Part shown: positions 33,978-47,310 of the stretch, one piece after another
How the letters are laid out: each line of letters starts with the position of its first letter
Position numbering within the stretch: the stretch's first letter is position 1
DNA from: Bacteroidales bacterium
GTDB taxonomy: Bacteria; Bacteroidota; Bacteroidia; Bacteroidales; Marinilabiliaceae
Reading direction: 5' to 3'
DNA length: 64,000 bases
Assembly (NCBI GenBank): GCA_024401355.1
Contig: JAKSLF010000008.1
Span: 1 to 64,000 of the forward strand
Translations under genes and position numbers: made by a program
The notes under the pieces: model-generated
Told to the model about the DNA's origin: nothing
The model's input: only the letters and a program-made list of their open reading frames with translations
The model's database searches: none

Positions 33978-34931
33978 ATGGAAGCTGTTTTAATAACGAT
34001 TGCAGTGTTGGCTTCGCTGGGCTTAACGGCAGCGTTTATACTTTATTTTGTATCGCAGAAATTCAAGGTCTATGAGGACCCAAAGATTGGCGAGGTAGAA
34101 GAAGTGTTGCCGGGTGCCAACTGTGGCGGATGCGGTTTTGCGGGATGCCATGCGATGGCTGAGGCATTGGCCAAGGCGGACGACATCTCGGGACTAGTAT
34201 GTCCGGTAGGTGGTTCGGCAGTCATGAGCCAAGTGGCGACAATACTTGGCAAGAGCGTTGCAGAGTCGGCTCCAAAAGTGGCAGTAGTGCGTTGTGCAGG
34301 CTGCACGGTAGGCGAATCGGCAAACCGTCAGAAGACATTGGACTATGACGGAGCGAAATCGTGTGCGATAGCATCGACACATTTTGCAGGTGACACAGCA
34401 TGTTCATACGGATGTCTTGGACTTGGAGACTGTGTAAAAGTGTGCCAGTTCAATGCGATCAAGGTGAACGAGGCGACAGGACTAGCAGAAGTGGACGAAG
34501 CGAAATGTGTTGCATGTGGAGCATGTGCGAAGGCATGTCCGAAGCAGATAATCGAGATACGCTACAAGGGCCGAGTAGTAAAAGACGTAGCACGCCGAGT
34601 ATGGGTAAGCTGCGTGAACAAGGACAAAGGAGCAGTAGCGATGAAGGCATGCAAGGCATCGTGCATAGGATGCGGCAAGTGTGCGAAAGTGTGCAAGTTT
34701 GAAGCAATCACAGTAGAGAACAATGTTGCTCACATCGACATGGAGAAGTGCAAGGCCTGTGGCTTGTGCATGAACGAGTGTCCAAAGAATGCAATAGTAG
34801 CGACATTCCCAGCTCCACCAAAGCCAGCTCCTAAACCAGCGGCAGTTGAGGCGACAGGAACAGCCATTCCGAAACCTGCAGAACAACCGAAGCCAGTAGA
34901 GGTACCGGTACAGGCAGACAAACAACAATAA
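33978..34931 (+). CDS. rnfB: Rnf complex subunit B, iron-sulfur electron entry subunit
   Basis: 317 residues. An N-terminal membrane helix (about 5-27) is followed by the 4Fe-4S motif GANCGGCGFAGCHAMAEAL (about 47-65, with a further Cys near 75). Then come several ferredoxin-type clusters: CSYGCLGLGDCVKVC (about 142-156), CVACGACAKACP (about 177-188), CIGCGKCAKVC (about 230-240) and CKACGLCMNECP (about 259-270). It passes electrons from reduced ferredoxin to the rest of the complex at the inner membrane. The proline/alanine-rich tail (about 275-317) is a low-complexity extension. Second gene of the operon; spacing to rnfC is 18 bp. Confidence 0.96.
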   Translation: MEAVLITIAVLASLGLTAAFILYFVSQKFKVYEDPKIGEVEEVLPGANCGGCGFAGCHAMAEALAKADDISGLVCPVGGSAVMSQVATILGKSVAESAPKVAVVRCAGCTVGESANRQKTLDYDGAKSCAIASTHFAGDTACSYGCLGLGDCVKVCQFNAIKVNEATGLAEVDEAKCVACGACAKACPKQIIEIRYKGRVVKDVARRVWVSCVNKDKGAVAMKACKASCIGCGKCAKVCKFEAITVENNVAHIDMEKCKACGLCMNECPKNAIVATFPAPPKPAPKPAAVEATGTAIPKPAEQPKPVEVPVQADKQQ

Positions 34932-34949
34932 AGATTAATCGAGGAACTT

Positions 34950-36329
34950 ATGTTGAAGACATTTAAAATAGGCGGCATACATCCAGAGGAGAACAAACTC
35001 TCGGCAGGAAGTGCACTCAAGCAGTTCCAATTGCCAGCCGACATCAAGGAAGTCAAGATACCTGTAGCTCAGCATATCGGTGCTCCAGCCCAGCCAGTTG
35101 TCGCAGTAGGTGATGACGTAAAAGTTGGTCAGGTAATAGCTCAGGCAGGAGGATTTGTTTCAGCAAACATACATTCACCATTCTCGGGCAAGGTTAAGAA
35201 AATAGAAGCCACAACAGGCGACGACGGAAAACCAGCCATGATGATAACGATCGCGATTGAGGGCGACGAATGGGTAGAGACAATAGACCGTTCGACAGGC
35301 ATCAAGCGTGAGATTACCCTCTCGGCAGAAGAGATCGTGAAGAAGATTGGCGAGATGGGTATCGTAGGCATGGGTGGTGCACGCTTCCCTGCACAGGTGA
35401 AACTTGCTGTAAAGCCTGGTCAGGCACAGGCGCTCATCATCAATGGTGTGGAATGTGAGCCATACTTGACAGCAGACCACCGACTGATGCTCGAGAAGAG
35501 TGAGGAAGTGCTTATAGGCATCAAGATACTGATGAAAGCCATTGGCGTAACAGAAGCATACATTGGCATCGAGAACAACAAGAAAGATGCGATAGAGTTG
35601 TTGACAAAACTGTCGGCAGGATATCCAGGCATCAAAGTACAGCCACTGAAGATGAAATATCCTCAGGGCGGTGAGAAGCAGTTGATAGACGCATGTATCG
35701 GACGTCAGGTGGCAAGTGGTGCACTACCTATATCAGTTGGTGCAGTAGTGCAGAACGTAGGTACAGCATTTGCAGTATATGAGGCAGTACAGAAGAACAA
35801 GCCACTGATAGAGCGAGTAGTTTGCGTCACAGGCAAGCCATTGCAGAATCCATCGAACTTCTGGGCAAGAATAGGCACACCAGTCAAGGCTCTCATCGAA
35901 GCGGCCGGCGGAATGCCAGAAGACTGTGCGAAGGTGATTGGTGGTGGTCCGATGATGGGCCGAGCATTTGCGACACTCGACGTACCAATTCACAAGGGAT
36001 CGTCGGGTATATTGCTGATGAACAACCAGGAATCGAAGCGAGGCGAGATAGCGAACTGCATCAGATGTGCTAAGTGCGTGTCGGTATGTCCGATGGGTCT
36101 TGAGCCATTCTTGCTGTCGAAAGTATCGGCAAAGCAGCTTTGGGACATGGCAGAGGAGAATCACATCGCCGACTGTATAGAGTGTGGTTCATGTAGCTTC
36201 ACATGTCCATCGAACCGTCCACTCCTCGACTACATCAGAAGAGGCAAGAGCACAGTGATGGGCATCATGAGGGCTCGTGCGGCAGCAGCCAAAGCAGCGG
36301 CAGAAGCAGCAGAAGCAAAGAAAAACTAA
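34950..36329 (+). CDS. rnfC: Rnf complex subunit C, NADH- and FMN-binding
   Basis: 459 residues. Domains: an N-terminal barrel/lipoyl-like region (about 1-110, PVAQHIGAPAQPVVAVGDDV); the Rossmann-like FMN/NAD domain with GMGGARFPAQVKLA (about 140-153) and NGVECEPYLTADHRLML (about 166-182); a SLBB-like region; and two 4Fe-4S clusters, CIRCAKCVSVCP (about 371-382) and CIECGSCSFTCP (about 410-421). It exchanges electrons with NAD+/NADH on the cytoplasmic side. The short alanine/lysine-rich C-terminus (about 437-459) is much shorter than in E. coli RsxC. Confidence 0.96.
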   Translation: MLKTFKIGGIHPEENKLSAGSALKQFQLPADIKEVKIPVAQHIGAPAQPVVAVGDDVKVGQVIAQAGGFVSANIHSPFSGKVKKIEATTGDDGKPAMMITIAIEGDEWVETIDRSTGIKREITLSAEEIVKKIGEMGIVGMGGARFPAQVKLAVKPGQAQALIINGVECEPYLTADHRLMLEKSEEVLIGIKILMKAIGVTEAYIGIENNKKDAIELLTKLSAGYPGIKVQPLKMKYPQGGEKQLIDACIGRQVASGALPISVGAVVQNVGTAFAVYEAVQKNKPLIERVVCVTGKPLQNPSNFWARIGTPVKALIEAAGGMPEDCAKVIGGGPMMGRAFATLDVPIHKGSSGILLMNNQESKRGEIANCIRCAKCVSVCPMGLEPFLLSKVSAKQLWDMAEENHIADCIECGSCSFTCPSNRPLLDYIRRGKSTVMGIMRARAAAAKAAAEAAEAKKN

Positions 36330-36350
36330 AACAGAAAACAGATAATCACA

Positions 36351-37310
36351 ATGAATAATTTAACCATAGCACCATCACCACATGTGCATAGCAGCGACTC
36401 AGTGAAGCGCAACATGTATTTGGTTGTCGCAGCTCTGCTTCCGGCCCTGATTGCATCGGTGTATTATTTTGGATTGGGCGCCCTATCGGTAGTTGTAACA
36501 TCGATAGTATCGTGCGTACTGATAGAGTTTCTCATACAGAAATTTGTCCTAAAAGTGCCAACGACCATAACAGATGGTTCGGCAGCAGTAACAGGTCTCA
36601 TCTTATCGTTCAACCTGCCAGCAGGACTTCCATTGTGGATAGTAGTTGTTGGTGCGCTAGTAGCGATAGGCATAGGCAAGATGACCTTTGGTGGTCTTGG
36701 CCAGAACATAGCGAACCCAGCAATATTGGGACGAGTATTCCTGCTTGTCTCATTCCCAGCACAGATGACCACATGGCCAGTGCCACAAGGAGCTGACGGT
36801 GCGACAGGTGCGACACCACTCGGACTGTTGAAAGAAGGTGGTGTAGGTGCACTTGCAAACATACCGACATCGGACCTTTTGTTTGGAAACATTGGCGGTT
36901 CGCTTGGTGAGATTTCGGCGCTTCTGCTTATCATTGGTGGAATAATCCTGCTGGTGACAAGAGTGATTACATGGCACATACCAGTGAGCATACTTGCGAC
37001 AGTAGCGATCTTTGCTGGCTTGATGTGGGGCGTTGACCCAACGCAGTATGCAGATCCATTGTTTCACATATTGACAGGTGGTATGCTTCTGGGTGCAATA
37101 TTCATGGCAACCGACTACGTAACATCACCAATGTCGCATTCGGGCATGATAGTATATGGTGTAGGCATTGGCCTTATAACAATGCTCATCCGTACATTCG
37201 GAGCATATCCGGAAGGAATGTCATTCGCTATTCTGATAATGAATATCGTGACACCACTTATCAACACCTATTGCAAACCTAAACGATTCGGGGAGGTAGT
37301 AAAGAAATGA
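36351..37310 (+). CDS. rnfD: Rnf complex subunit D, flavin-bearing membrane subunit
   Basis: 319 residues with about ten membrane helices. The start region (SPHVHSSDSVKRNMYLVVAA, about 8-27) and TDGSAAVTGLILSFNLP (about 75-91) are family-typical. The GADGATGATPLG stretch (about 147-158) contains the Thr that carries covalent FMN. It forms part of the ion-translocating membrane core. Its last 4 bases overlap the rnfG start. Confidence 0.96.
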   Translation: MNNLTIAPSPHVHSSDSVKRNMYLVVAALLPALIASVYYFGLGALSVVVTSIVSCVLIEFLIQKFVLKVPTTITDGSAAVTGLILSFNLPAGLPLWIVVVGALVAIGIGKMTFGGLGQNIANPAILGRVFLLVSFPAQMTTWPVPQGADGATGATPLGLLKEGGVGALANIPTSDLLFGNIGGSLGEISALLLIIGGIILLVTRVITWHIPVSILATVAIFAGLMWGVDPTQYADPLFHILTGGMLLGAIFMATDYVTSPMSHSGMIVYGVGIGLITMLIRTFGAYPEGMSFAILIMNIVTPLINTYCKPKRFGEVVKK

Positions 37311-38038
37311 AAAAGCTAGAATCAACATTGCCAAACATGCTGGCAGTCCTAACATGCATCTGCATCATAGCAGCAGCACTCCTCGGCATGATGAACGAGG
37401 TCACTAAAGACCCTATCGCCCAGATAGAGCAGAAGAACCTCGAAGAAGGCATCAAGAAAGTGATATTGGGAGCCAATGCGAGTGGCGACCTCACGGTGAG
37501 CAAGATAGACACCATCGTCGAAGACAAGCAGGTATATATAGTATATACTGCAGAGCAGAACGGCAAGGAACTTGGCAAGGCAGTAAAAACTGCAGTACAG
37601 GGATTCTCGCCAGACTTGACAGTGCTTACAGGCTTTGATGCCGAAGGCAACGTGATGGGCTATGAGATATTGAAGCATGGTGAAACTCCAGGACTTGGTG
37701 CACAGGCTCCAGAGTGGTTCAAGGACAAGGAGAACAATCCGAAGAGCTACATCATCGGAATGAATCCTGGCAAGAACAAGATGACAGTGAGCAAAGACGG
37801 CGGTGAGATAGACGCCATCACAGCATCAACAATCACCAGCCGTGCATTCTTGAAAGCTATCAACATGGAATATAACACCCTCTTCAAGGGCAACGCCGAG
37901 ACAGGTGCGACAAAAAAAGCCGAGCCAGCATCATGCGACTCGACAGCAGTTGCGACAAACGACTCGACAGCCGTAGCAGAAAAAGAAGCTCAGCAAGGCG
38001 GTGCATTAACTATCAAGGTAGTTGAAGTAGAAGAATAA
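37307..38038 (+). CDS. rnfG: Rnf complex subunit G, covalent-flavin subunit
   Basis: 243 residues. One N-terminal membrane helix (about 8-30) and an FMN-binding domain outside the membrane. The flavinylation motif reads DAITASTITSRAF (about 169-181), a slight variant of the usual D-x-(S/T)-G-A-T; the acceptor Thr is kept and the Gly is replaced by Ala. GYEILKHGETPGLGAQ (about 116-131) is conserved. A low-complexity Asp-Ser-Thr-Ala tail (about 205-243) extends the protein beyond the usual end. The ATG overlaps the rnfD stop by four bases. Confidence 0.95.
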   Translation: MKKLESTLPNMLAVLTCICIIAAALLGMMNEVTKDPIAQIEQKNLEEGIKKVILGANASGDLTVSKIDTIVEDKQVYIVYTAEQNGKELGKAVKTAVQGFSPDLTVLTGFDAEGNVMGYEILKHGETPGLGAQAPEWFKDKENNPKSYIIGMNPGKNKMTVSKDGGEIDAITASTITSRAFLKAINMEYNTLFKGNAETGATKKAEPASCDSTAVATNDSTAVAEKEAQQGGALTIKVVEVEE

Positions 38039-38070
38039 AAGGGTTACTCAACCAAAAAAAGAACTAGAAA

Positions 38071-38652
38071 ATGAATAAGTTTAAGATAATACTCAACGGA
38101 CTTGTCAAGGAGAACCCTACATTTGTACTTCTCCTCGGTATGTGTCCGACACTTGGTACGACAACGTCGGCCATCAATGGTATGGGTATGGGACTTGCGA
38201 CGACATTCGTACTCATCTGTTCGAACGTCGTATTGTCATCAATAAAGAAGATAGTGCCAGACATGGTGCGCATACCATCGTTCATCGTGGTTATCGCAAC
38301 ATTCGTGACAGTGCTCCAGATGCTGATGCAGGCATATATGCCATCGCTTTATGCATCGCTCGGTCTCTTCATTCCACTGATTGTTGTGAACTGTATCGTG
38401 CTTGGCCGTGCAGAGGCATTCGCAGTAAAGAACACACCATTCGACTCTATGCTTGACGGCATTGGCATGGGTTTGGGCTTCACCATAGCGCTCACATTGC
38501 TTGGTGCCTGCCGTGAGTTGCTCGGTTCGGGCAACATCTTTGGTATCGACCTGTGGAGCAAGGAGTATGGAGCACTGGCATTCGTGCTTGCACCAGGAGC
38601 CTTCATAGTATTGGGCTACCTCATCGCCATCGTCAACAAACTCCGTAATTAA
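38071..38652 (+). CDS. rnfE: Rnf complex subunit E, membrane subunit
   Basis: 193 residues, about six membrane helices, homologous to RnfA. Signature GLVKENPTFVLLLGMCPTLG (about 10-29), with the membrane Cys that helps bind the intramembrane Fe-S centre, and NCIVLGRAEAFA (about 108-119). Part of the ion-translocating core. Confidence 0.96.
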   Translation: MNKFKIILNGLVKENPTFVLLLGMCPTLGTTTSAINGMGMGLATTFVLICSNVVLSSIKKIVPDMVRIPSFIVVIATFVTVLQMLMQAYMPSLYASLGLFIPLIVVNCIVLGRAEAFAVKNTPFDSMLDGIGMGLGFTIALTLLGACRELLGSGNIFGIDLWSKEYGALAFVLAPGAFIVLGYLIAIVNKLRN

Positions 38653-38674
38653 TTAAACTCAAAAGAAAAGAATT

Positions 38675-39268
38675 ATGGAATATATACTTATAGTCATATC
38701 GGCAATCTTCGTCAACAACGTTGTATTGTCGCAGTTCCTCGGCATTTGCCCTTTCCTTGGAGTTTCAAAGAAGGTGAGCACAGCCGCAGGCATGGGTGCA
38801 GCAGTAACATTCGTGCTGACACTTGCCACAATCGTGACATACCTAGTACAGAAGTGCATACTTGAACCATTCGACCTCAAGTATCTGCAGACAATAGCAT
38901 TCATCCTCATCATCGCAGCCCTTGTGCAGATGGTAGAGATCATACTCAAGAAAGTGTCGCCATCGCTCTATCAGGCACTTGGTGTATTCTTGCCACTTAT
39001 CACAACAAACTGCTGTATCCTTGGTGTAGCAATAATGGTAGGTGACGGAACATACAACGCGATGGGTCTTGAGCCAACATTGTTGAGTGGTGTAGTTTAT
39101 GCAATAGCAACAGCCATAGGCTTTGCACTTGCCCTCATCCTCTTCGCAGGTGTACGCGAGCATCTCGAACTCATGGATATTCCAGAGGGAATGAAAGGCA
39201 TGCCAATAGCACTCATCGTGGCAGGCATCATGGCCTTGGCATTCATCGGATTCTCGGGTCTGGTATAA
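38675..39268 (+). CDS. rnfA: Rnf complex subunit A, membrane subunit
   Basis: 197 residues, about six membrane helices. NNVVLSQFLGICPFLGVSKK (about 14-33) and TNCCILGVAIM (about 110-120) contain the cysteines that bind the shared intramembrane [2Fe-2S] centre with RnfE. Last gene of the operon; a terminator follows at 39291-39324. Confidence 0.96.
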   Translation: MEYILIVISAIFVNNVVLSQFLGICPFLGVSKKVSTAAGMGAAVTFVLTLATIVTYLVQKCILEPFDLKYLQTIAFILIIAALVQMVEIILKKVSPSLYQALGVFLPLITTNCCILGVAIMVGDGTYNAMGLEPTLLSGVVYAIATAIGFALALILFAGVREHLELMDIPEGMKGMPIALIVAGIMALAFIGFSGLV

Positions 39269-39368: not shown

Positions 39369-41183
39369 ATGAATAACCTTTTTCACAAAATCACAACAGC
39401 CATATTTGCAATCATTGTATTCGCATTCTGGCTGGTTGGTCACCCTGAGGCATTGTCATTTCAAGAGCAATACCAGATGTTTCTGCTCACGAAAGGATAT
39501 TTCGCTGAAAGGATGGCTGTAGCCGGCGGACTAGCAGACTACGTGGCCGAATTCCTGACCCAGATGTACTACTTTCCTGCATTGGGTGCGGGCATACTGG
39601 CAATTGTTATCACACTGATACAAATAAGCACATGGACATTAGCCAAGAGAACTGGTGGTAAGGGAATGCCTGACACGCACTATGCGTTGAGCTTCATCCC
39701 GGCAATAATGACATTGTGCCTGATGGGTGACGAAAACATGATGCTGGAATTTGCGGTAGCAACACTGATGGTCTTAGGTGCGACGATAGGTTATACATAC
39801 GTCAGGGAATATCAATGGGCAGTACATCTAGCAGCAATACCACTACTCTACTGGCTTGCCGGACCTATAGTAATTATATATATTATAGCGACAGCCATTT
39901 ATGACATTAGGATGCGTGGGACAGGCAAAGCCGTTGTTGGAGGGATAGCATTGGGCATTGTCATTTGGATAGCAACAATGACAATAGCAGCCATGACATG
40001 GCTCGTGCAGTACACACCGACCGACATAGCCTTTGGAATAAACTACAACCGTCTGAGACAAGTGGTTCCACCAATGATGATAGCAACTGAAGCTGCGACA
40101 GCACTTATACCACTTGTGATAGCACTGATGCCACAGATGAAGTCGACGGTGGTACTAACAGTAGAATGGGTAATAATAGCCATAGCAGGAATAGCCGGAG
40201 TGGAAGCAAGCTATGACAAAGCAAAATATAGCACCATAGAATACGATTACCTCGTAAGAAGCGAGAGGTGGGATGCGATAATAGAGAAAGCCAAGAAAGA
40301 CAGACCACAAAACGACATGGATCGCGTCTGCATAAACCTTGCGCTTGAGATGAGAGGAGAATTGCTGGAGAGAATGTTTGAATTCAACCAGAATGGAGCG
40401 AAAGGATTGCTTGCGCCAGCAAAACGAGACCAGTTGACATGCCTTTCGACAGCTGAAGTATTCTACAGACTTGGCATGGTCAACGAAGCACAGAAATATT
40501 TCTTTGACATACAGGAATCGATAATAAATTGCCGCAAAAGCAGCCGATGCACAAAGAGGATCATAGAGACAATGATCGTGAACGGTCGCTACGAAGTGGC
40601 AAGGAAATACATCGACAGATTGAAGAACACCATGTTCTATGCAGGATGGGCAAAGAATGCGGAGAAATATCTATACAACGAAGAGGCAGTCAACACACAT
40701 CCGATATGGGGACGCATGAGGCAGCTGAGATACAAAAACGACTTCTTGGGGAACTACTACGAAATGGACAAGATGCTGGGAATGCTATACCTAACCAACA
40801 CAACTAACAGGATGGCCTTTGAATATTTCGTTGCACAAAACCTACTGCTGAGAAACATGAAAGGCGTATACAGCGCCATACCATGGTTCATAGAACAAAA
40901 ATACGCGCAGACGCCACGTCACATAGAAGAAGCCATAAGCATGATATGGTCGCAAGGTCACTCAAGTTTTGACGGAATGCCTATAGAGGTGAGCCAACAG
41001 ACAAAGAACGACCTGATGAGATTTGCCAAGATATACTCGACAAATCCGAAGGACAGACAACTGGAACAGGATAATTGGAAGAAGACATATTGGCACTACT
41101 GCCTAATTGAAAAGCCACGTGAGAATGTGGACGGCAAGAGTGGTGCAACAAGCCTAAACAGCGACGAAGAACAAAAAAGGTAA
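39369..41183 (+). CDS. DUF6057-type polytopic membrane protein, first copy
   Basis: 604 residues from the promoter-supported start. The first 300 contain about nine membrane helices and the conserved marks ALSFQEQYQMFL (about 33-44), VAEFLTQMYY (about 59-68), LSFIPAIMTLCLMGDENMML (about 115-134). Residues about 300-590 are soluble and helical, TPR-like (RWDAIIEKAKKDRPQND, FYRLGMVNEAQKYFFDI). DUF6057 is a Bacteroidetes family of unknown function. A second copy, also exactly 604 residues, lies at 43261-45075 with the same marks, so the pair arose by duplication. Each copy is followed directly by a CxxCH beta-propeller gene; a membrane partner for those lipoproteins is the likely role (inference). 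Confidence 0.82.
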   Translation: MNNLFHKITTAIFAIIVFAFWLVGHPEALSFQEQYQMFLLTKGYFAERMAVAGGLADYVAEFLTQMYYFPALGAGILAIVITLIQISTWTLAKRTGGKGMPDTHYALSFIPAIMTLCLMGDENMMLEFAVATLMVLGATIGYTYVREYQWAVHLAAIPLLYWLAGPIVIIYIIATAIYDIRMRGTGKAVVGGIALGIVIWIATMTIAAMTWLVQYTPTDIAFGINYNRLRQVVPPMMIATEAATALIPLVIALMPQMKSTVVLTVEWVIIAIAGIAGVEASYDKAKYSTIEYDYLVRSERWDAIIEKAKKDRPQNDMDRVCINLALEMRGELLERMFEFNQNGAKGLLAPAKRDQLTCLSTAEVFYRLGMVNEAQKYFFDIQESIINCRKSSRCTKRIIETMIVNGRYEVARKYIDRLKNTMFYAGWAKNAEKYLYNEEAVNTHPIWGRMRQLRYKNDFLGNYYEMDKMLGMLYLTNTTNRMAFEYFVAQNLLLRNMKGVYSAIPWFIEQKYAQTPRHIEEAISMIWSQGHSSFDGMPIEVSQQTKNDLMRFAKIYSTNPKDRQLEQDNWKKTYWHYCLIEKPRENVDGKSGATSLNSDEEQKR

Positions 41184-41198
41184 CAGGAGGAGAGAAAG

Positions 41199-42656
41199 AT
41201 GAATTACATAAAATATATAGCCATAATGGCAATAGCTACTGCCTGTACCGAACATCCGGAAAATGCAATGAAGCTGACAAGTGAGCCACCAATATATCCA
41301 GACTATAAAGGCGTAACAATACCAGCAGGCATAGCACCAATGAACTTCAACATAGACGGAGCGGAAATAGTTGACGTCAGTGTAAAGGGGAGCATAGTCG
41401 GAGAGATGCATGCGAATGGCGAATGGGCCGACTTTGACATAGAAGAATGGCATAATATAACGGAACAGAACAAAGGTGGTGACCTAGTATTCAGAGTATC
41501 GGCCAAGAATGACGGGAAGTGGGTTGAATATGCAGACTTCAAGATGCACGTAAGCAACGACCCACTTGACGACTACGGACTGACATACAGGAAACTGGCT
41601 CCAGGATATGAAGTATTCAGCGACATAGGCAACTACCAGCGTGACATACACACATTTGACGAAGAAGCCATACTGGCAAGCACAGCAGTGCCAGGACAAT
41701 GCATGTCGTGTCATACTGCGAATCGGACAAATCCTCGCCAACTGACAGTACACCTGAGAGGCAAACATGCAGCCACACTGGTTCAGATAGACGGGAAACG
41801 CACATGGCTGACGACCAAGACGGACTCGACAATATGCAACTGCATGTATCCGTATTGGCATCCATCGGGCAACTATTGCGCCTACTCGCTCAACAAAGTG
41901 CACCAGAGCTTCTATGTCGGGAACAAACGTTTTATAGAAGTATTTGACGATGCCTCAGACGCGACAATACTCGACGTCAGGACCAACGAACTTATACTCT
42001 CGCCACTGCTGCAGACCAAAGACTGCGAAACATATCCGACATTCTCGGCAGACGGCAAGACAATATACTACTGCACATCCAAGGCACACAGAGTGCCAGC
42101 CGAATGTGAAAAGATGCGCTACGACCTATGCACTATAGACTTCGATGCAGAAAGCGGACGCGTAGGCAACACAGTGGATACGATACTAAAAGTGTCGGAT
42201 AAAGGGCACAGCATAACCTTTCCTCGTCCGTCATACGATGGCAAATACTTGATGTACTGCTTATCAGACTTCGGCTATTTTCCGATAGACCATAAGGAGA
42301 GTGACCTATGGCTGATGGACCTTAGAAGTGGCGAGACAAGAGCTATAGATGAAGTGAACAGTGAAGACACCGAGAGCTTCCACAATTGGAGTTCGAACTC
42401 TCACTGGTTTGTCTTCAGTAGCCGACGCGAAGACGGACAATATAGTCTGCTCTACATCGCCAACATCGACAGCGAAGGTAACATAGGCAAGCCATTTGTC
42501 ATGCCACAGCGTAACCCAAGAGAATATTACCGAGCATCACTCCACTCATATAACGTACCTGACTTCACGCTGACAAAAGTTGAACTCGACGCAAGAGCGG
42601 CATACGAGGAAGTGTTCTCGGATGAAAGAATACAAGTAGGAATAAAGAAACAATAA
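41199..42656 (+). CDS. PD40/TolB-like propeller lipoprotein with one CxxCH haem motif, first copy
   Basis: 485 residues. Lipoprotein signal ending AIATAC (Cys16). An Ig-like beta domain (about 30-120) is followed by a linker with a single c-type haem motif CMSCH (168-172). Then WD40/PD40-like beta-propeller repeats follow: YPYWHPSGNYCAYSLN (about 213-228), YPTFSADGKTIYYC (about 280-293), FPRPSYDGKYLMYCLSDF (about 344-361), and HNWSSNSHWFVFSSRREDG (about 397-415). Covalent haem on the envelope side is inferred; it would need a cytochrome maturation system not present in this window. The paralogue at 45072 keeps the motif. Begins 15 bp after the DUF6057 gene. Confidence 0.82.
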   Translation: MNYIKYIAIMAIATACTEHPENAMKLTSEPPIYPDYKGVTIPAGIAPMNFNIDGAEIVDVSVKGSIVGEMHANGEWADFDIEEWHNITEQNKGGDLVFRVSAKNDGKWVEYADFKMHVSNDPLDDYGLTYRKLAPGYEVFSDIGNYQRDIHTFDEEAILASTAVPGQCMSCHTANRTNPRQLTVHLRGKHAATLVQIDGKRTWLTTKTDSTICNCMYPYWHPSGNYCAYSLNKVHQSFYVGNKRFIEVFDDASDATILDVRTNELILSPLLQTKDCETYPTFSADGKTIYYCTSKAHRVPAECEKMRYDLCTIDFDAESGRVGNTVDTILKVSDKGHSITFPRPSYDGKYLMYCLSDFGYFPIDHKESDLWLMDLRSGETRAIDEVNSEDTESFHNWSSNSHWFVFSSRREDGQYSLLYIANIDSEGNIGKPFVMPQRNPREYYRASLHSYNVPDFTLTKVELDARAAYEEVFSDERIQVGIKKQ

Positions 42657-42669
42657 GAAAACAGACAAC

Positions 42670-43251
42670 ATGAACATCATAAGCAAAACATTAGCAGCCA
42701 TAGCATGCATCGCGGCTCTCACAGCATGCACCAAGAACCAAGAATGCAGAATACACGGCACAGTGCCGTCAGACCAATATGATGACAAATACATATTTCT
42801 GGTCCCTATCTATAAACCAGATAGTGTTGGCGTTGATTCGGTCAAAATAAAAGGCAGAACATTCGAATTTGTAACCGAGAAGAACATCGTGGCAGACATA
42901 CGCCTTGGGTACAGATACAGATTTGGCACACAGAATCTGCTGATTGTAACCGAACCAGGCGACGTATATGCCGAAATAGATTCAATAAGCAAAGGATGGG
43001 GCACGCCACAGAACGACTATCTACAGGAGTGGAAAGAGAACACCGAATCAAAGACAAAAGCAATCAGAGCCTTGACAAAAGCAATCAACGCAGCCAAGGC
43101 CGCTGATGACAACCAGTCGGTTGACGAATTGAGGCACCAGGTACAGGAGATACAGGGCAGTTACATGGAAAAAACAATGAAACTGAAAGAGACACTCAAA
43201 GAGGGACCACTATTCGATTTTCTCGACAAGATATATCCATCAAAGCAATAG
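42670..43251 (+). CDS. DUF4369-like lipoprotein in the middle of the duplicated cassette
   Basis: 193 residues. Lipoprotein signal with Cys20 (AALTAC). The beta domain RIHGTVPSDQYDDKYIFLVP (about 27-46) and SVKIKGRTFEF (about 57-67) fits the DUF4369 domain that Bacteroidetes often place before thioredoxin domains. Here the thioredoxin part is absent, and the C-terminal half is a charged, probably coiled-coil helix (about 120-180). It separates the two membrane/CxxCH gene pairs and has no duplicate. Function unknown; a thioredoxin-less envelope partner of the haem lipoproteins is a guess. Confidence 0.72.
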   Translation: MNIISKTLAAIACIAALTACTKNQECRIHGTVPSDQYDDKYIFLVPIYKPDSVGVDSVKIKGRTFEFVTEKNIVADIRLGYRYRFGTQNLLIVTEPGDVYAEIDSISKGWGTPQNDYLQEWKENTESKTKAIRALTKAINAAKAADDNQSVDELRHQVQEIQGSYMEKTMKLKETLKEGPLFDFLDKIYPSKQ

Positions 43252-43260
43252 GACAAAGCA

Positions 43261-45075
43261 ATGAAAAACATTGTAGGCAAATATTGGCAAAGTCTGTTGA
43301 CACTGACATTTGGAATAGGAGTATTCATATTCTGGTATATCCTTTATCCGTATGCTCTCTCATTCCAGGAGGAACTGCAGTTGTTCATCTATGACAGCCA
43401 GTATCTGATAGAAAGACTGGGCTATTCGGGAGGCGTATCGGTATACATAGCCGAGTTCCTAACCCAGTTCTACACATCACTTACGGCAGGCGCCATAATA
43501 CTGGCAGTCATATTTGTCATACTGCAACAACTGACATGGAAAGTTGCGAAAAATGAGGGGGCAGACGACAGGCACTACCCTCTCTCGTTTGTGCCTGCAG
43601 TATTCTTGCTATACAGCATGGGTGACGAGAATATACTGCTGGGGTTGGTTGTTGCTACAATAATTGCATTGTCAGTCAACCTGCTATACACAAAGATAGA
43701 AACAAATAGATGGAAGATTGCGGCTATTGCCATTGGTCTGCCTATTCTTTTTTGGATAGCAAGTTCGGCCGCATACATAACAGTTGGATATATAATAATT
43801 AGGGAGATAAGAAAGAATGGAATCAACAAGGAGAGCATATTACTCAGCATAGGCTTGATAATCTACATGATAGCGATTATCATTGTGTGCTATAGAATGT
43901 CTCCATACCAGTTCTACAGAGTGGCGTCCGGCATCAACTTCTACAGATACAGACATATCGTAAGCAAAGCAGAGATTGCCATACTGCTAATATTTACAAT
44001 TACTCCAGCAATAGCAGGCTTCATTACAAAATGGCAAAATGAGAAGTGCGTCTCTGCAAGCAAGAACAATAGCAAGACGAAAGGGAACAATTGGATAACT
44101 CGCACAGAAACATTGGAAGCCATAGCCATAGCGCTATGCTGCATATTCGTCGTCAGAACTGGATATGACGAGAGGAAGTATGACATCATGGAATACGACA
44201 TGCTGCTGCGAAGACATTCATGGGATAAAATAATAGAGAAAGCAGAAAAGAAGCAGGCTACATCTCCAACAGAAGTAAGCACAATAAATTTTGCACTGGC
44301 CATGGAAGGCCGCCTGACAGACAGGATGTTTGAATTCTACCAGAAGAACTCTGAAGGTCTCATGCCGCTATACAAGCGAGAACTGACATCGACACTAATG
44401 GCCAACGAGATATACTTCCGCATAGGAATGATAAATACGGCACAACGATTTGCATTTGAGTCACTAGAGTCAATCCCCAACCACCAGAAAAGCGGAAGAA
44501 TCATGAGGCGACTTGTAGAAACCAACATGATCAATGGTCAGTATGAGGTGGCAGAAAAATACATCAAAATATTGAAAAAAACATTTGCATATCGCAGATG
44601 GGCTAACGAGATGGAAGGATATCTCTATAACGACGAAAAAATAGACAAGCATCCGTTCTATGGCGAAATGAGACGATTCAGAGTGACAGAGGACTTCCTC
44701 TATAGCGACAACGAAATGGACCAAATGCTGGGACTGCTATTTATGCATAACAACGACAACAGAATGGCTCTTGAATATCTGCTGGCATGTGAACTTCTAA
44801 CAAAAGATATTGGTCACTTCATGGAGTACTACCCTCTCACCAGCAATCTGAAAGGATATCCTACTGTTCCTCCTAGGTCATTCCAGGAAGCCATGATATA
44901 TGCATGGATTAACCAAGGAAAGAAAATACAGGATTGTCCGTGGCCTGTCAGTGACTTTGTCAAACAGAACATGGCTAAGTTTGGCCAGATATACATGGCT
45001 GACAAAAACAGCCAACAGTTACAGGAAGGATATTTTGCAACCTCATACTGGAACTACCTATTTTTTGAAAGATGA
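43261..45075 (+). CDS. DUF6057-type polytopic membrane protein, second copy
   Basis: 604 residues, the same length as the first copy. Shared marks in the same order: ALSFQEELQLFI (about 34-45), IAEFLTQFY (about 61-69), LSFVPAVFLLYSMGDENILL (about 105-124, following DDRHYP), the soluble helical half beginning near DMLLRRHSWDKIIEKAEKKQ (about 316-335), and LLFMHNNDNRMALEYLL (about 495-511). Overall identity to copy one is clearly partial, so the duplication is old. It starts 9 bp after the DUF4369 gene, and its TGA overlaps the ATG of the next gene by four bases (45072-45075), indicating tight coupling with the CxxCH partner. Confidence 0.82.
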   Translation: MKNIVGKYWQSLLTLTFGIGVFIFWYILYPYALSFQEELQLFIYDSQYLIERLGYSGGVSVYIAEFLTQFYTSLTAGAIILAVIFVILQQLTWKVAKNEGADDRHYPLSFVPAVFLLYSMGDENILLGLVVATIIALSVNLLYTKIETNRWKIAAIAIGLPILFWIASSAAYITVGYIIIREIRKNGINKESILLSIGLIIYMIAIIIVCYRMSPYQFYRVASGINFYRYRHIVSKAEIAILLIFTITPAIAGFITKWQNEKCVSASKNNSKTKGNNWITRTETLEAIAIALCCIFVVRTGYDERKYDIMEYDMLLRRHSWDKIIEKAEKKQATSPTEVSTINFALAMEGRLTDRMFEFYQKNSEGLMPLYKRELTSTLMANEIYFRIGMINTAQRFAFESLESIPNHQKSGRIMRRLVETNMINGQYEVAEKYIKILKKTFAYRRWANEMEGYLYNDEKIDKHPFYGEMRRFRVTEDFLYSDNEMDQMLGLLFMHNNDNRMALEYLLACELLTKDIGHFMEYYPLTSNLKGYPTVPPRSFQEAMIYAWINQGKKIQDCPWPVSDFVKQNMAKFGQIYMADKNSQQLQEGYFATSYWNYLFFER

Positions 45076-46571
45076 TGACAAGAAAACATAGCAATATAGG
45101 CATCGCAATGTGCGCAGCCGCACTGATGATGACAATGACAATGTGTAGCGAGACTCCACAGAACATAAAGGACGTCAATGCCGAGGCAAAGATATATCCC
45201 GACTACGCAGGAGTCACAATACCATCCAACATAGCACCACTGAACTTCTGTATCGACAACGATAGTGTGACATGCCTAGACGTCACAATAAAAGGCTCAA
45301 AAGGTGGGGAAATCGAGTCGAACGGCCAGTATACAGACTTTGACGTTGATGAATGGCACAAGCTATGCGAGGCCAACAAAGGAGACAGTCTGACTGTCAG
45401 CGTAATAGCCAAGAAGAATGACATCTGGACAAAGTACAAGGATTTCAGCATATACATAAGCGATGACACGATGGAAGCTTATGGACTAACATACCGACGT
45501 ATAGCTCCAGGCTATGAAGTATACGGTCACATGGGAATATACCAGCGTAACTTGTCCAACTTTGAAGAAGAGTCAATAATGGACAATAACGAAGTGTATG
45601 GAGCATGCTTCAACTGCCATACAGGCAACAAGACTAGCAACCAAGACTATCTGTTCCATGTCCGTGGCGACAACGCAGCTACTATAGTGAACCACAATGG
45701 GAAGACCGACATACTGAATACAAAGACCGACAAGACTATCGGTTCACTTGTCTACCCGTACTGGCATCCTGATGGACGTTATGTTGCATTCTCATCAAAC
45801 ACAACAAGACAGTCATTTCACATGACGAGAGACACTAGAATCGAAGTGTTTGACAACGAGTCTGACATCATGGTATATGACACAGAAAAACAAGAAATAC
45901 TCTTCACTCCACTGACTAACAATACCGATTCGACTCTAGAGACCTTTCCTGCCTTTTCGGCCGACGGCAAAGATATATTCTTCTGCGCAGCATCGAGCAA
46001 TTACAACCCGGCTTCGATGAAGGATCTGTGGTACGACTTGTGCAAGATTAGCTTCGATGCGGAAAAGAGAAGTTTCGGAAGCAAAGTAGATACCGTGATA
46101 AAAATGTCTACACATGGGAAGAGCATATCTCACCCACGTCCATCGTATGACGGACGCTACCTAATGTTCACAGTAAGCGATTTCGGAACATTCCCTATAT
46201 GGCATAAAGAGGCCGACTTATGGATGCTAGACCTTCAGACTGGCAAATACTGGCCAATGGACAATGCGAACAGCGACAATACTGACAGTTACCACAACTG
46301 GAGCATCGATTCGCACTGGTTTGTCTTCACAAGCCGCAGAGACGATGGATTATACACACGCCTATACATAGCGCATGTTGACAAAAATGGCAAATCTAGC
46401 AAGCCATTCCTGCTGCCACAAAGAAATCCGAAAAGATATTATGACGCACTGCTAGACTCATATAATACTCCGGACTTCCTCATCGCAAAGATAAGCCAGA
46501 ATCAGAAAGCCTTGGCTAGCAAACTGCTGTCACCGGAAAGGACGAACATTGAGGCTGTCAATGTAGAGTAG
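45072..46571 (+). CDS. PD40/TolB-like propeller lipoprotein with one CxxCH haem motif, second copy
   Basis: 499 residues. Signal sequence ending TMTMC (Cys25), a weaker lipobox than in copy one. Ig-like domain, then the haem motif CFNCH (179-183), then propeller repeats parallel to copy one: YPYWHPDGRYVAFSSN (about 226-241), FPAFSADGKDIFFC, HPRPSYDGRYLMFTVSDF and HNWSIDSHWFVFTSRRDDG (about 411-429). The conservation of exactly one CxxCH in both paralogues, in the same place between the Ig and propeller domains, argues that the motif is used. Last gene of the cassette; the gene at 46588 is convergent. Confidence 0.82.
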   Translation: MMTRKHSNIGIAMCAAALMMTMTMCSETPQNIKDVNAEAKIYPDYAGVTIPSNIAPLNFCIDNDSVTCLDVTIKGSKGGEIESNGQYTDFDVDEWHKLCEANKGDSLTVSVIAKKNDIWTKYKDFSIYISDDTMEAYGLTYRRIAPGYEVYGHMGIYQRNLSNFEEESIMDNNEVYGACFNCHTGNKTSNQDYLFHVRGDNAATIVNHNGKTDILNTKTDKTIGSLVYPYWHPDGRYVAFSSNTTRQSFHMTRDTRIEVFDNESDIMVYDTEKQEILFTPLTNNTDSTLETFPAFSADGKDIFFCAASSNYNPASMKDLWYDLCKISFDAEKRSFGSKVDTVIKMSTHGKSISHPRPSYDGRYLMFTVSDFGTFPIWHKEADLWMLDLQTGKYWPMDNANSDNTDSYHNWSIDSHWFVFTSRRDDGLYTRLYIAHVDKNGKSSKPFLLPQRNPKRYYDALLDSYNTPDFLIAKISQNQKALASKLLSPERTNIEAVNVE

Positions 46572-46587
46572 GCAAATCTTGCCTATG

Positions 46588-47310
46588 TCAAGAGAAGAGA
46601 GCCTTGATAGAGAACCAGATTACAGGGACAAGAAGTGACGGCAGAAGATTAACCGTCTTGCAGTCCTTGATGGAAAGTATGGACAGCCCAGAACTGACAA
46701 TGAGTACACCTCCGACAATGCTCAATTCTACACGCATCGGCTCTGGCATAGCCTCTCCAAAGAAATAAGCGATGTAATAGAACATAGCCTGCCAGCAGAA
46801 TAATGCTGGAGCCGCGAGAAGCATTATCCATCCATACGAAGCAGAAAGAACGGCTGAAGTCACCAAATCCAATGTAGCATTGGTATATAGATACGTATTT
46901 CCGGGTTCACTCAGCGCCCACCCTTGGCTTGGAGACAGACACGACAATACAGGTCCGACAATGCTGAAGGTGCCTATTGTGTACAGCAATATACCCGTCA
47001 CCAGTCCGTTTATGCTGTTGTTTTCCTTACCTGACTTGGCATTAAGTCTTGCATTCAAGCGGTCAATGCGACCGGAAAGATCGAGTTTCGTGCCCACAAC
47101 ACCTCCTATGGCTAGACTAAGGATAAACAGCACCGGATATTCACTCTTTGCCATGTTGGGCAATGCCGCATTGACTCCCAGTACAAGACATGCCAGTCCG
47201 AGAGCATTAAAAAGAGCCGACTTGTACTTATCACCTATACCCTCACGGACAATGGCGCCAAAGGCTCCTCCAACAAGTATTGTACATGTATTTACTATCG
47301 TCCCTAACAT
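46588..47310 (-). CDS. DUF554 membrane protein
   Basis: 240 residues, about six membrane helices. The opening MLGTIVNTCTILVGGAFGAI (1-20) and GGVVGTKLDLSGRIDRLNAR (about 69-88) are diagnostic for DUF554 (YdfK/YqgA-like) inner-membrane proteins of unknown function. It is downstream of the serine hydrolase gene by 15 bp and probably shares its transcript. Confidence 0.9.
   Translation of the reverse strand: MLGTIVNTCTILVGGAFGAIVREGIGDKYKSALFNALGLACLVLGVNAALPNMAKSEYPVLFILSLAIGGVVGTKLDLSGRIDRLNARLNAKSGKENNSINGLVTGILLYTIGTFSIVGPVLSCLSPSQGWALSEPGNTYLYTNATLDLVTSAVLSASYGWIMLLAAPALFCWQAMFYYIAYFFGEAMPEPMRVELSIVGGVLIVSSGLSILSIKDCKTVNLLPSLLVPVIWFSIKALFS

Follow-up and report, generated by a model that had tools for sequence, protein, structure and literature searches.

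We describe a gene unit from a 64,000-nucleotide stretch of DNA (hereafter the window) of a Bacteroidales bacterium of the Marinilabiliaceae (GenBank assembly GCA_024401355.1, contig JAKSLF010000008.1, positions 1 to 64,000 of the forward strand). In this unit a gene for a polytopic membrane protein of the DUF6057 family (PF19529) is joined to a gene for a lipoprotein with one CxxCH, the attachment motif of c-type haem, and the window contains two such pairs in tandem. The two genes form a real two-gene unit that is inherited together. We give an even chance to the proposal that the lipoprotein is a monohaem c-type protein of TolB fold, which acts with its dedicated membrane partner in redox chemistry or sensing in the cell envelope.

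The source genome contains six DUF6057 genes and six of the lipoprotein genes, all in adjacent pairs, and the arrangement in the window is thus not the two-copy duplication assumed in an earlier interpretation made from the letters of the window (the sequence-only reading). The remaining four lipoproteins also have one CxxCH each; of their pairs, one follows sufBCD-like genes (named from sequence), one lies among other neighbours, and a SusC/SusD pair lies upstream of the remaining two, which stand tail to tail. Whether the two families are always neighbours, a question raised by the same reading, was examined in 80 related loci from genome contigs and in 84 stretches from genome surveys and the source genome. 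With DUF6057 proteins below 450 amino acids (aa) and lipoproteins below 420 aa left out, here and in the residue counts for the resulting 228 pairs, a lipoprotein gene lies within 400 nt on the same strand for 228 of 239 DUF6057 genes (163/166 in the related loci and 65/73 in the survey stretches); among the 11 genes outside this rule, that of locus L222 has its lipoprotein tail to tail. A stricter gene picker, which missed lipoproteins that are present in L169, L220 and L225, placed DUF6057 before the lipoprotein in 57 of 64 pairs, with six in the reverse order and one convergent. The tree distances of the two proteins are correlated (r 0.78, 60 pairs), a value reached by none of 2000 permutations; when lipoproteins were shuffled within genomes the mean r fell to 0.39 and the observed value was reached by none of 5000 shuffles, which shows that each lipoprotein is co-inherited with its own DUF6057 partner. 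A third pair, with the motif CMNCH...MMYVRG, is often found tail to tail with the tandem pair in many of the loci L020-L096; its lipoprotein has tyrosine at the position of His185, and His221 is serine in a similar number of lipoproteins, the two counts not being matched protein by protein. Loci L187 and L188, from two genomes of one genus and with a common gene context, have lone haem lipoproteins and no DUF6057 nearby.

The two cysteines and the histidine of CxxCH are kept in 254 of 255 aligned lipoproteins, a figure inflated by relatedness because 183 of the proteins come from the 80 closest loci; among the other 72, chosen for diversity, the motif is kept in 71 (proteins of 450 aa or less were dropped from the alignment). 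The many conserved homologues without CxxCH that the sequence-only reading named as a possible refutation were therefore not found. Motif-less fragments and frame-broken copies (L065, L093, L192 and L201) are not counted as losses. The presence of the motif is not due to chance, since CxxCH occurs in only two of the 56 open reading frames (ORFs) of at least 150 aa in the six frames of the window, both being the tandem lipoproteins, and in only four of 713 other genes that surround the pairs at related loci. Arg187 is present in all 255 aligned proteins and Trp84 in 254, while His395 is found in 250 (224/228 in the paired set) and is the best candidate from the alignments for the second axial haem ligand. 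The lipobox column is cysteine in 252 of the 255, as expected of an exported lipoprotein.

An AlphaFold model of the lipoprotein has a beta-rich N-terminal domain, and its best whole-model alignment is with TolB. The propeller is TolB-like, and no immunoglobulin family is matched by Pfam in the N-terminal domain, which had been taken for an Ig domain in the sequence-only reading. The likeness to TolB of the Tol-Pal system is one of fold in the model, from which the CxxCH and the lipobox set the lipoprotein apart; membership of that family is ruled out by scores of 23.9 and 23.5 bits against a TIGR02800 cut-off of 343. Cytochrome cd1, RoxA-like proteins and the alpha subunit of hydrazine synthase likewise combine a haem c site and a propeller in one exported protein, but none is listed as a sequence relative of the lipoprotein; haem-propeller enzymes such as cytochrome cd1 are also not among the fold-table matches, which excludes nothing. 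A second and larger single-CxxCH propeller family, here called LIPdist, was observed at L194-L198, mostly with the motif CGNCHS and in some members with a fused TPR region. It resembles the lipoprotein in its single CxxCH, its PD40 propeller, the histidine of an SWHSWS motif (the counterpart of His395, present in 6/6) and, by eye, its N-terminal stretch; it differs in its length of about 560-920 aa, in having TPR in the same chain in some members, and in that no DUF6057 is present in the fetched stretches around its genes.

The features of the tandem unit and its flanks are collected in Table 1. The lengths, order and positions of the two pairs that had been read from the sequence are all borne out by the ORFs and by PF19529, as are the presence of exactly one CxxCH in each lipoprotein and the 4-bp stop/start overlap of the second pair, which is ATGA at 45072-45075. 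The intervening lipoprotein lies where it was said to be, with its family label weakened to DUF4369-like.

Table 1. Genes and sites of the tandem unit and its neighbours (window positions)
Feature	Position	Strand	Remarks
Rnf operon, directly upstream	33978-39268	+	Named from sequence, without a family call
DUF6057-a, polytopic membrane protein with C-terminal TPR-like region, 604 aa	39369..41183	+	PF19529 E 4.1e-153; frame open
Haem-lipoprotein a (predicted haem), 485 aa: lipobox Cys16, beta-rich N-terminal domain, CxxCH, TolB-like propeller	41199..42656	+	
CMSCH, predicted covalent haem c site, lipoprotein a residues 168-172	41700..41714	+	
His395 of lipoprotein a (HNWS), candidate sixth haem ligand	42381..42383	+	
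DUF4369-like lipoprotein, third gene of tandem unit	42670..43251	+	PF14289 22.4 bits, under cut-off of 25
DUF6057-b, 604 aa	43261..45075	+	PF19529 E 4.1e-166
Haem-lipoprotein b (predicted haem), 499 aa	45072..46571	+	4-bp overlap with DUF6057-b
CFNCH, predicted covalent haem c site, lipoprotein b residues 179-183	45606..45620	+	
DUF554 membrane protein, convergent with tandem unit	46588-47310	-	PF04474 E 1e-57

In a survey of 246 genomes of the Bacteroidales order, DUF6057 is present in 32 (in one of these, G340, only as a C-terminal match) and a near full-length lipoprotein in 31; in a phylum-wide sample DUF6057 was found in six of 392 genomes, four of them from the same order. Few candidates were scored per genome (five for DUF6057, six for the lipoprotein and four for LIPdist) and copy numbers are accordingly lower bounds, while most of the genomes look like metagenome-assembled genomes or drafts, so that gene absences may be assembly gaps. 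The cytochrome c assembly family PF01578 occurs in 201 of the 246 genomes and in 31 of the 32 with DUF6057, which is the co-occurrence with cytochrome c maturation that the sequence-only reading had proposed to look for. The PF01578 gene of the source genome is a CcsBA-type fusion with a ResB part (L200:6683-8761). NrfA was dropped as a reason for the presence of CcsBA, as it was not found in the source genome and is present in only 10 of the 31 lipoprotein genomes. An envelope haem module is the leading interpretation because the gene unit is real, its CxxCH is conserved and the assembly gene is present in nearly all hosts; this part of the original suggestion of an envelope redox or sensing module is supported, and its tie to Rnf is not. 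Rnf lies near the pair in none of the 80 related loci (in 58 of these the whole 8 kb before the matched lipoprotein is covered, the rest being cut by contig ends), and among the survey loci relatives of the RnfA/E of the window, from Rnf or Nqr, occur only in L167 and L229. Its placement is thus local to the source genome, and Rnf was dropped as the electron source. The DUF4369-like gene is more widely retained: a relative is present in 63 of the 80 loci and directly before DUF6057 in 46, which indicates that the five-gene tandem is an old arrangement.

A further gene accompanies these families. It codes for a RidA-like protein of about 390 aa, and in L163, L166, L182, L183, L205, L207, L215, L237 and L241 at most one gene separates it from DUF6057 or the lipoprotein; it is also present in six of the 80 closest loci. 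The best relatives of known structure are the chorismatase Hyg5 (PDB 5AG3/5A3K, E 1.8e-41) and FkbO; the family matches of the FkbO/Hyg5 kind score below the cut-off (37 to 111 bits for five proteins against 325 for TIGR04444). Catalysis by Hyg5 has been assigned to Glu334, and Gly164, Gly231 and Cys318 of Nat-hyg5 mark chorismatases of the 3-hydroxybenzoate type, according to a published study (PMC7170507); the offset of nine between the two glutamate numbers places the latter three at Hyg5 positions 173, 240 and 327. All 46 companion proteins retain Gly173, Gly240, Cys327, Arg328 and Glu334 (Hyg5 numbering); the profile used to collect these proteins was itself made from 12 of the 46. The companion has catalytic residues in common with the CH-II (Hyg5) chorismatases and, judged by these residues, may make 3-hydroxybenzoate from chorismate, but it is unlike them in falling below the NCBIfam cut-off and in that roughly half of the 39 contexts examined place it with cytochrome genes. 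It is found, usually as a single gene, in 46 of the 246 genomes, including 30 of the 32 with DUF6057 (the others being G340 and G509) and all five with LIPdist. Expressed for either haem-propeller family, it is present in 32 of 33 genomes against 14 of 213 others (Fisher P 5e-28, with genomes counted as independent); all 19 taxonomic families with DUF6057 have the companion, among 30 families that have it. A ubiquinone-like quinone was rejected as its product, the UbiA family being near universal (243/246 genomes) and its copy numbers, by eye, no higher in companion genomes.

The 39 contexts of the companion comprise 37 genes in 36 of the 38 loci L242-L279, together with L200 and L241; the companions of L248 and L254 are absent from them, and the CxxCH neighbour in L260 may be a spurious ORF. 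A CxxCH gene lies within three genes of the companion in 19 contexts, CcsBA lies within four genes in 13, and neither is present in 17; these last argue against a role limited to one operon. The typical operon consists of porin, imelysin, di-haem oxidoreductase, porin, a one-haem PSCyt1 lipoprotein, the companion and CcsBA, and other contexts contain haem proteins of the hydrazine synthase alpha-domain or cd1/RoxA-like kinds, or PSCyt2, PSD1 and DUF1501 genes. In the source genome the companion is on contig C69 (L200), close to CcsBA with one short ORF between them; the region L200:4897-8761 also includes di-haem oxidoreductase, imelysin and porin genes, and such operons recur in Bacteroidales, also where DUF6057 is lacking. 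A gene at L274:8273-12268, near the companion, codes for a 1332-aa protein that has two CxxCH motifs and combines a middle domain of the hydrazine synthase alpha type with FGE-sulfatase and NPCBM domains; its relatives occur in L242, L246, L271 and L275, the domains having been scanned in the L274 copy.

It may be that the companion and the haem propellers share hosts only through an iron- or haem-limited lifestyle that includes CcsBA, and serve separate pathways. The frequent placement of the companion in the imelysin operon fits this, as do the 17 contexts without cytochrome neighbours and the 14 of 46 companion genomes without either propeller family. BT2473-82 of Bacteroides thetaiotaomicron, which comprises similar kinds of gene and, from its gene content, is probably an operon of the same kind, is induced about 63- to 324-fold under iron depletion, no companion gene being named in the passages on this locus (PMC10434189). 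Against this explanation, in several families at most one gene separates the companion from DUF6057, and this holds also for two genomes that do not belong to the Bacteroidales order (L182 and L183); the companion adjoins LIPdist genes in L197 and L198, and PF01578 co-occurs with the propellers far less strongly than the companion does. We consider a merely shared lifestyle rather unlikely. The more specific proposal of an undescribed redox system of the envelope, with a small aromatic compound that a chorismatase-type enzyme makes from chorismate as carrier or ligand for c-type haem proteins, chiefly the lipoproteins with their DUF6057 partners, is in our estimation improbable.

The AlphaFold model of DUF6057-b has a predicted local distance difference test score of 95.5 and a predicted template-modelling score of 0.92; we take the C-terminal TPR-like region of the protein to be periplasmic. 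In one structural aligner the model gives a weak match to GT-C enzymes (STT3, protein mannosyltransferases and TMTC), and a likeness to these is possible on this basis. DUF6057 could then be a glycosyltransferase of the GT-C type with a TPR acceptor-binding domain, resembling a bacterial counterpart of TMTC, and the lipoprotein its acceptor, escort or redox switch instead of an electron carrier; no sequence relation to GT-C enzymes was found, however, and their outer-loop acidic residue is not invariant in DUF6057, where Glu37 of the first outer loop is present in 205 of 228 paired proteins and 59 of 79 in a diverse set. We regard such an enzymic role as doubtful.

The surroundings of the pairs suggest a connection with nutrient uptake. 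A SusC or SusD gene lies within three genes of 24 of 76 DUF6057 genes, whereas for background and companion genes the counts are 10 of 403 and two of 39 (the background was taken from stretches around companion genes, and L241, one of these stretches, also contains a pair); thus the pairs, and not the companion, associate with outer-membrane uptake loci. This pattern would fit one shared supply and several substrate-specific users, and since there are from one to at least six units per genome, about a third of them near SusC/SusD, we suggest that the units are substrate-specific versions of one device. The same facts agree with a haem that is sensory or structural, in which the propeller would read redox state, nitric oxide, oxygen or carbon monoxide and signal through the TPR membrane protein to uptake genes: the haem site is single, no donor or acceptor is constant beside the pair, and several paralogues linked to SusC/SusD suit input-specific sensors. 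DUF6057 has no output domain in Pfam or NCBIfam scans, and by eye no regulator recurs beside most pairs in the gene maps, so we hold this form of sensor to be unlikely. The alternatives considered here are not all exclusive of the interpretation we prefer, and the probabilities we attach to them need not sum to one.

In the proposal of a monohaem envelope unit, each pair would constitute one unit, whose exported TolB-like propeller lipoprotein bears one c-type haem at CxxCH; CcsBA, the system II synthase whose gene lies elsewhere in the source genome, would attach it. The lipoprotein would dock on its own polytopic inner-membrane partner DUF6057, and the unit, located in the periplasm or at the outer membrane, would carry out one-electron redox reactions or sense redox state, the haem passing or sensing electrons for a process tied, in some cases, to a neighbouring uptake system. 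The units may all rely on the chorismatase-like gene, usually one per genome, with a product of chorismatase type that supports haem function as a carrier, as a ligand or through iron chemistry.

Several observations weigh against this proposal. CxxCH by itself is no proof of haem, which in the lipoprotein is predicted. The full-length relatives of L169 (outside the 255-protein alignment) and L193 lack the motif, and that of L169 nevertheless keeps its DUF6057; these two are natural controls for the role of the haem. His185 is replaced by glutamine or tyrosine in 100 of 255 lipoproteins and was ruled out as a universal haem ligand. G509 has the pair and no companion at E 1e-20, and G572 has the lipoprotein and no PF01578 gene found even at E 1. 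No redox gene is constant in the gene maps of the pairs, donors such as NapC-type quinol dehydrogenases not having been searched for, and sensing stands equally with electron transfer as a function. G572 in particular would suit a CxxCH that is a disulfide, a metal site or a thiol-redox motif. That the histidine is kept along with both cysteines almost without exception, that the assembly gene accompanies DUF6057 in all but one host, and that the companion gene also accompanies a related family, whose motif is C-G/A-NCH, make this very improbable.

The literature searched, which left most subscription journals outside it, contained no mention of DUF6057 or PF19529, and none was found that joins Bacteroidetes, polysaccharide utilization, c-type cytochrome and propeller. 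Judging by titles, 3-hydroxybenzoate synthase with cytochrome c led to hydroxybenzoate production in Corynebacterium, and chorismatase with Bacteroidetes to other subjects. Each single part has a known relative, and to our knowledge no described system joins them; we therefore regard the combination as new.

In summary, the analysis adds to the sequence-only reading the companion gene, the proximity of the pairs to SusC/SusD, the TolB fold, the conservation of the DUF4369-like gene and a possible GT-C likeness, and the co-occurrence of the companion with the haem lipoproteins points to an undescribed envelope redox or sensing system in gut Bacteroidales. If this is true, gut bacteria place covalent haem in a device that is present in up to at least six copies in a genome and is linked in part to the uptake of nutrients, and a chorismatase acts alongside cytochromes. 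Should the less likely system exist, with the aromatic compound as carrier or ligand, electrons could reach haem proteins of the outer envelope without a dedicated quinol dehydrogenase, in a system that would be fitted to specific uptake systems.
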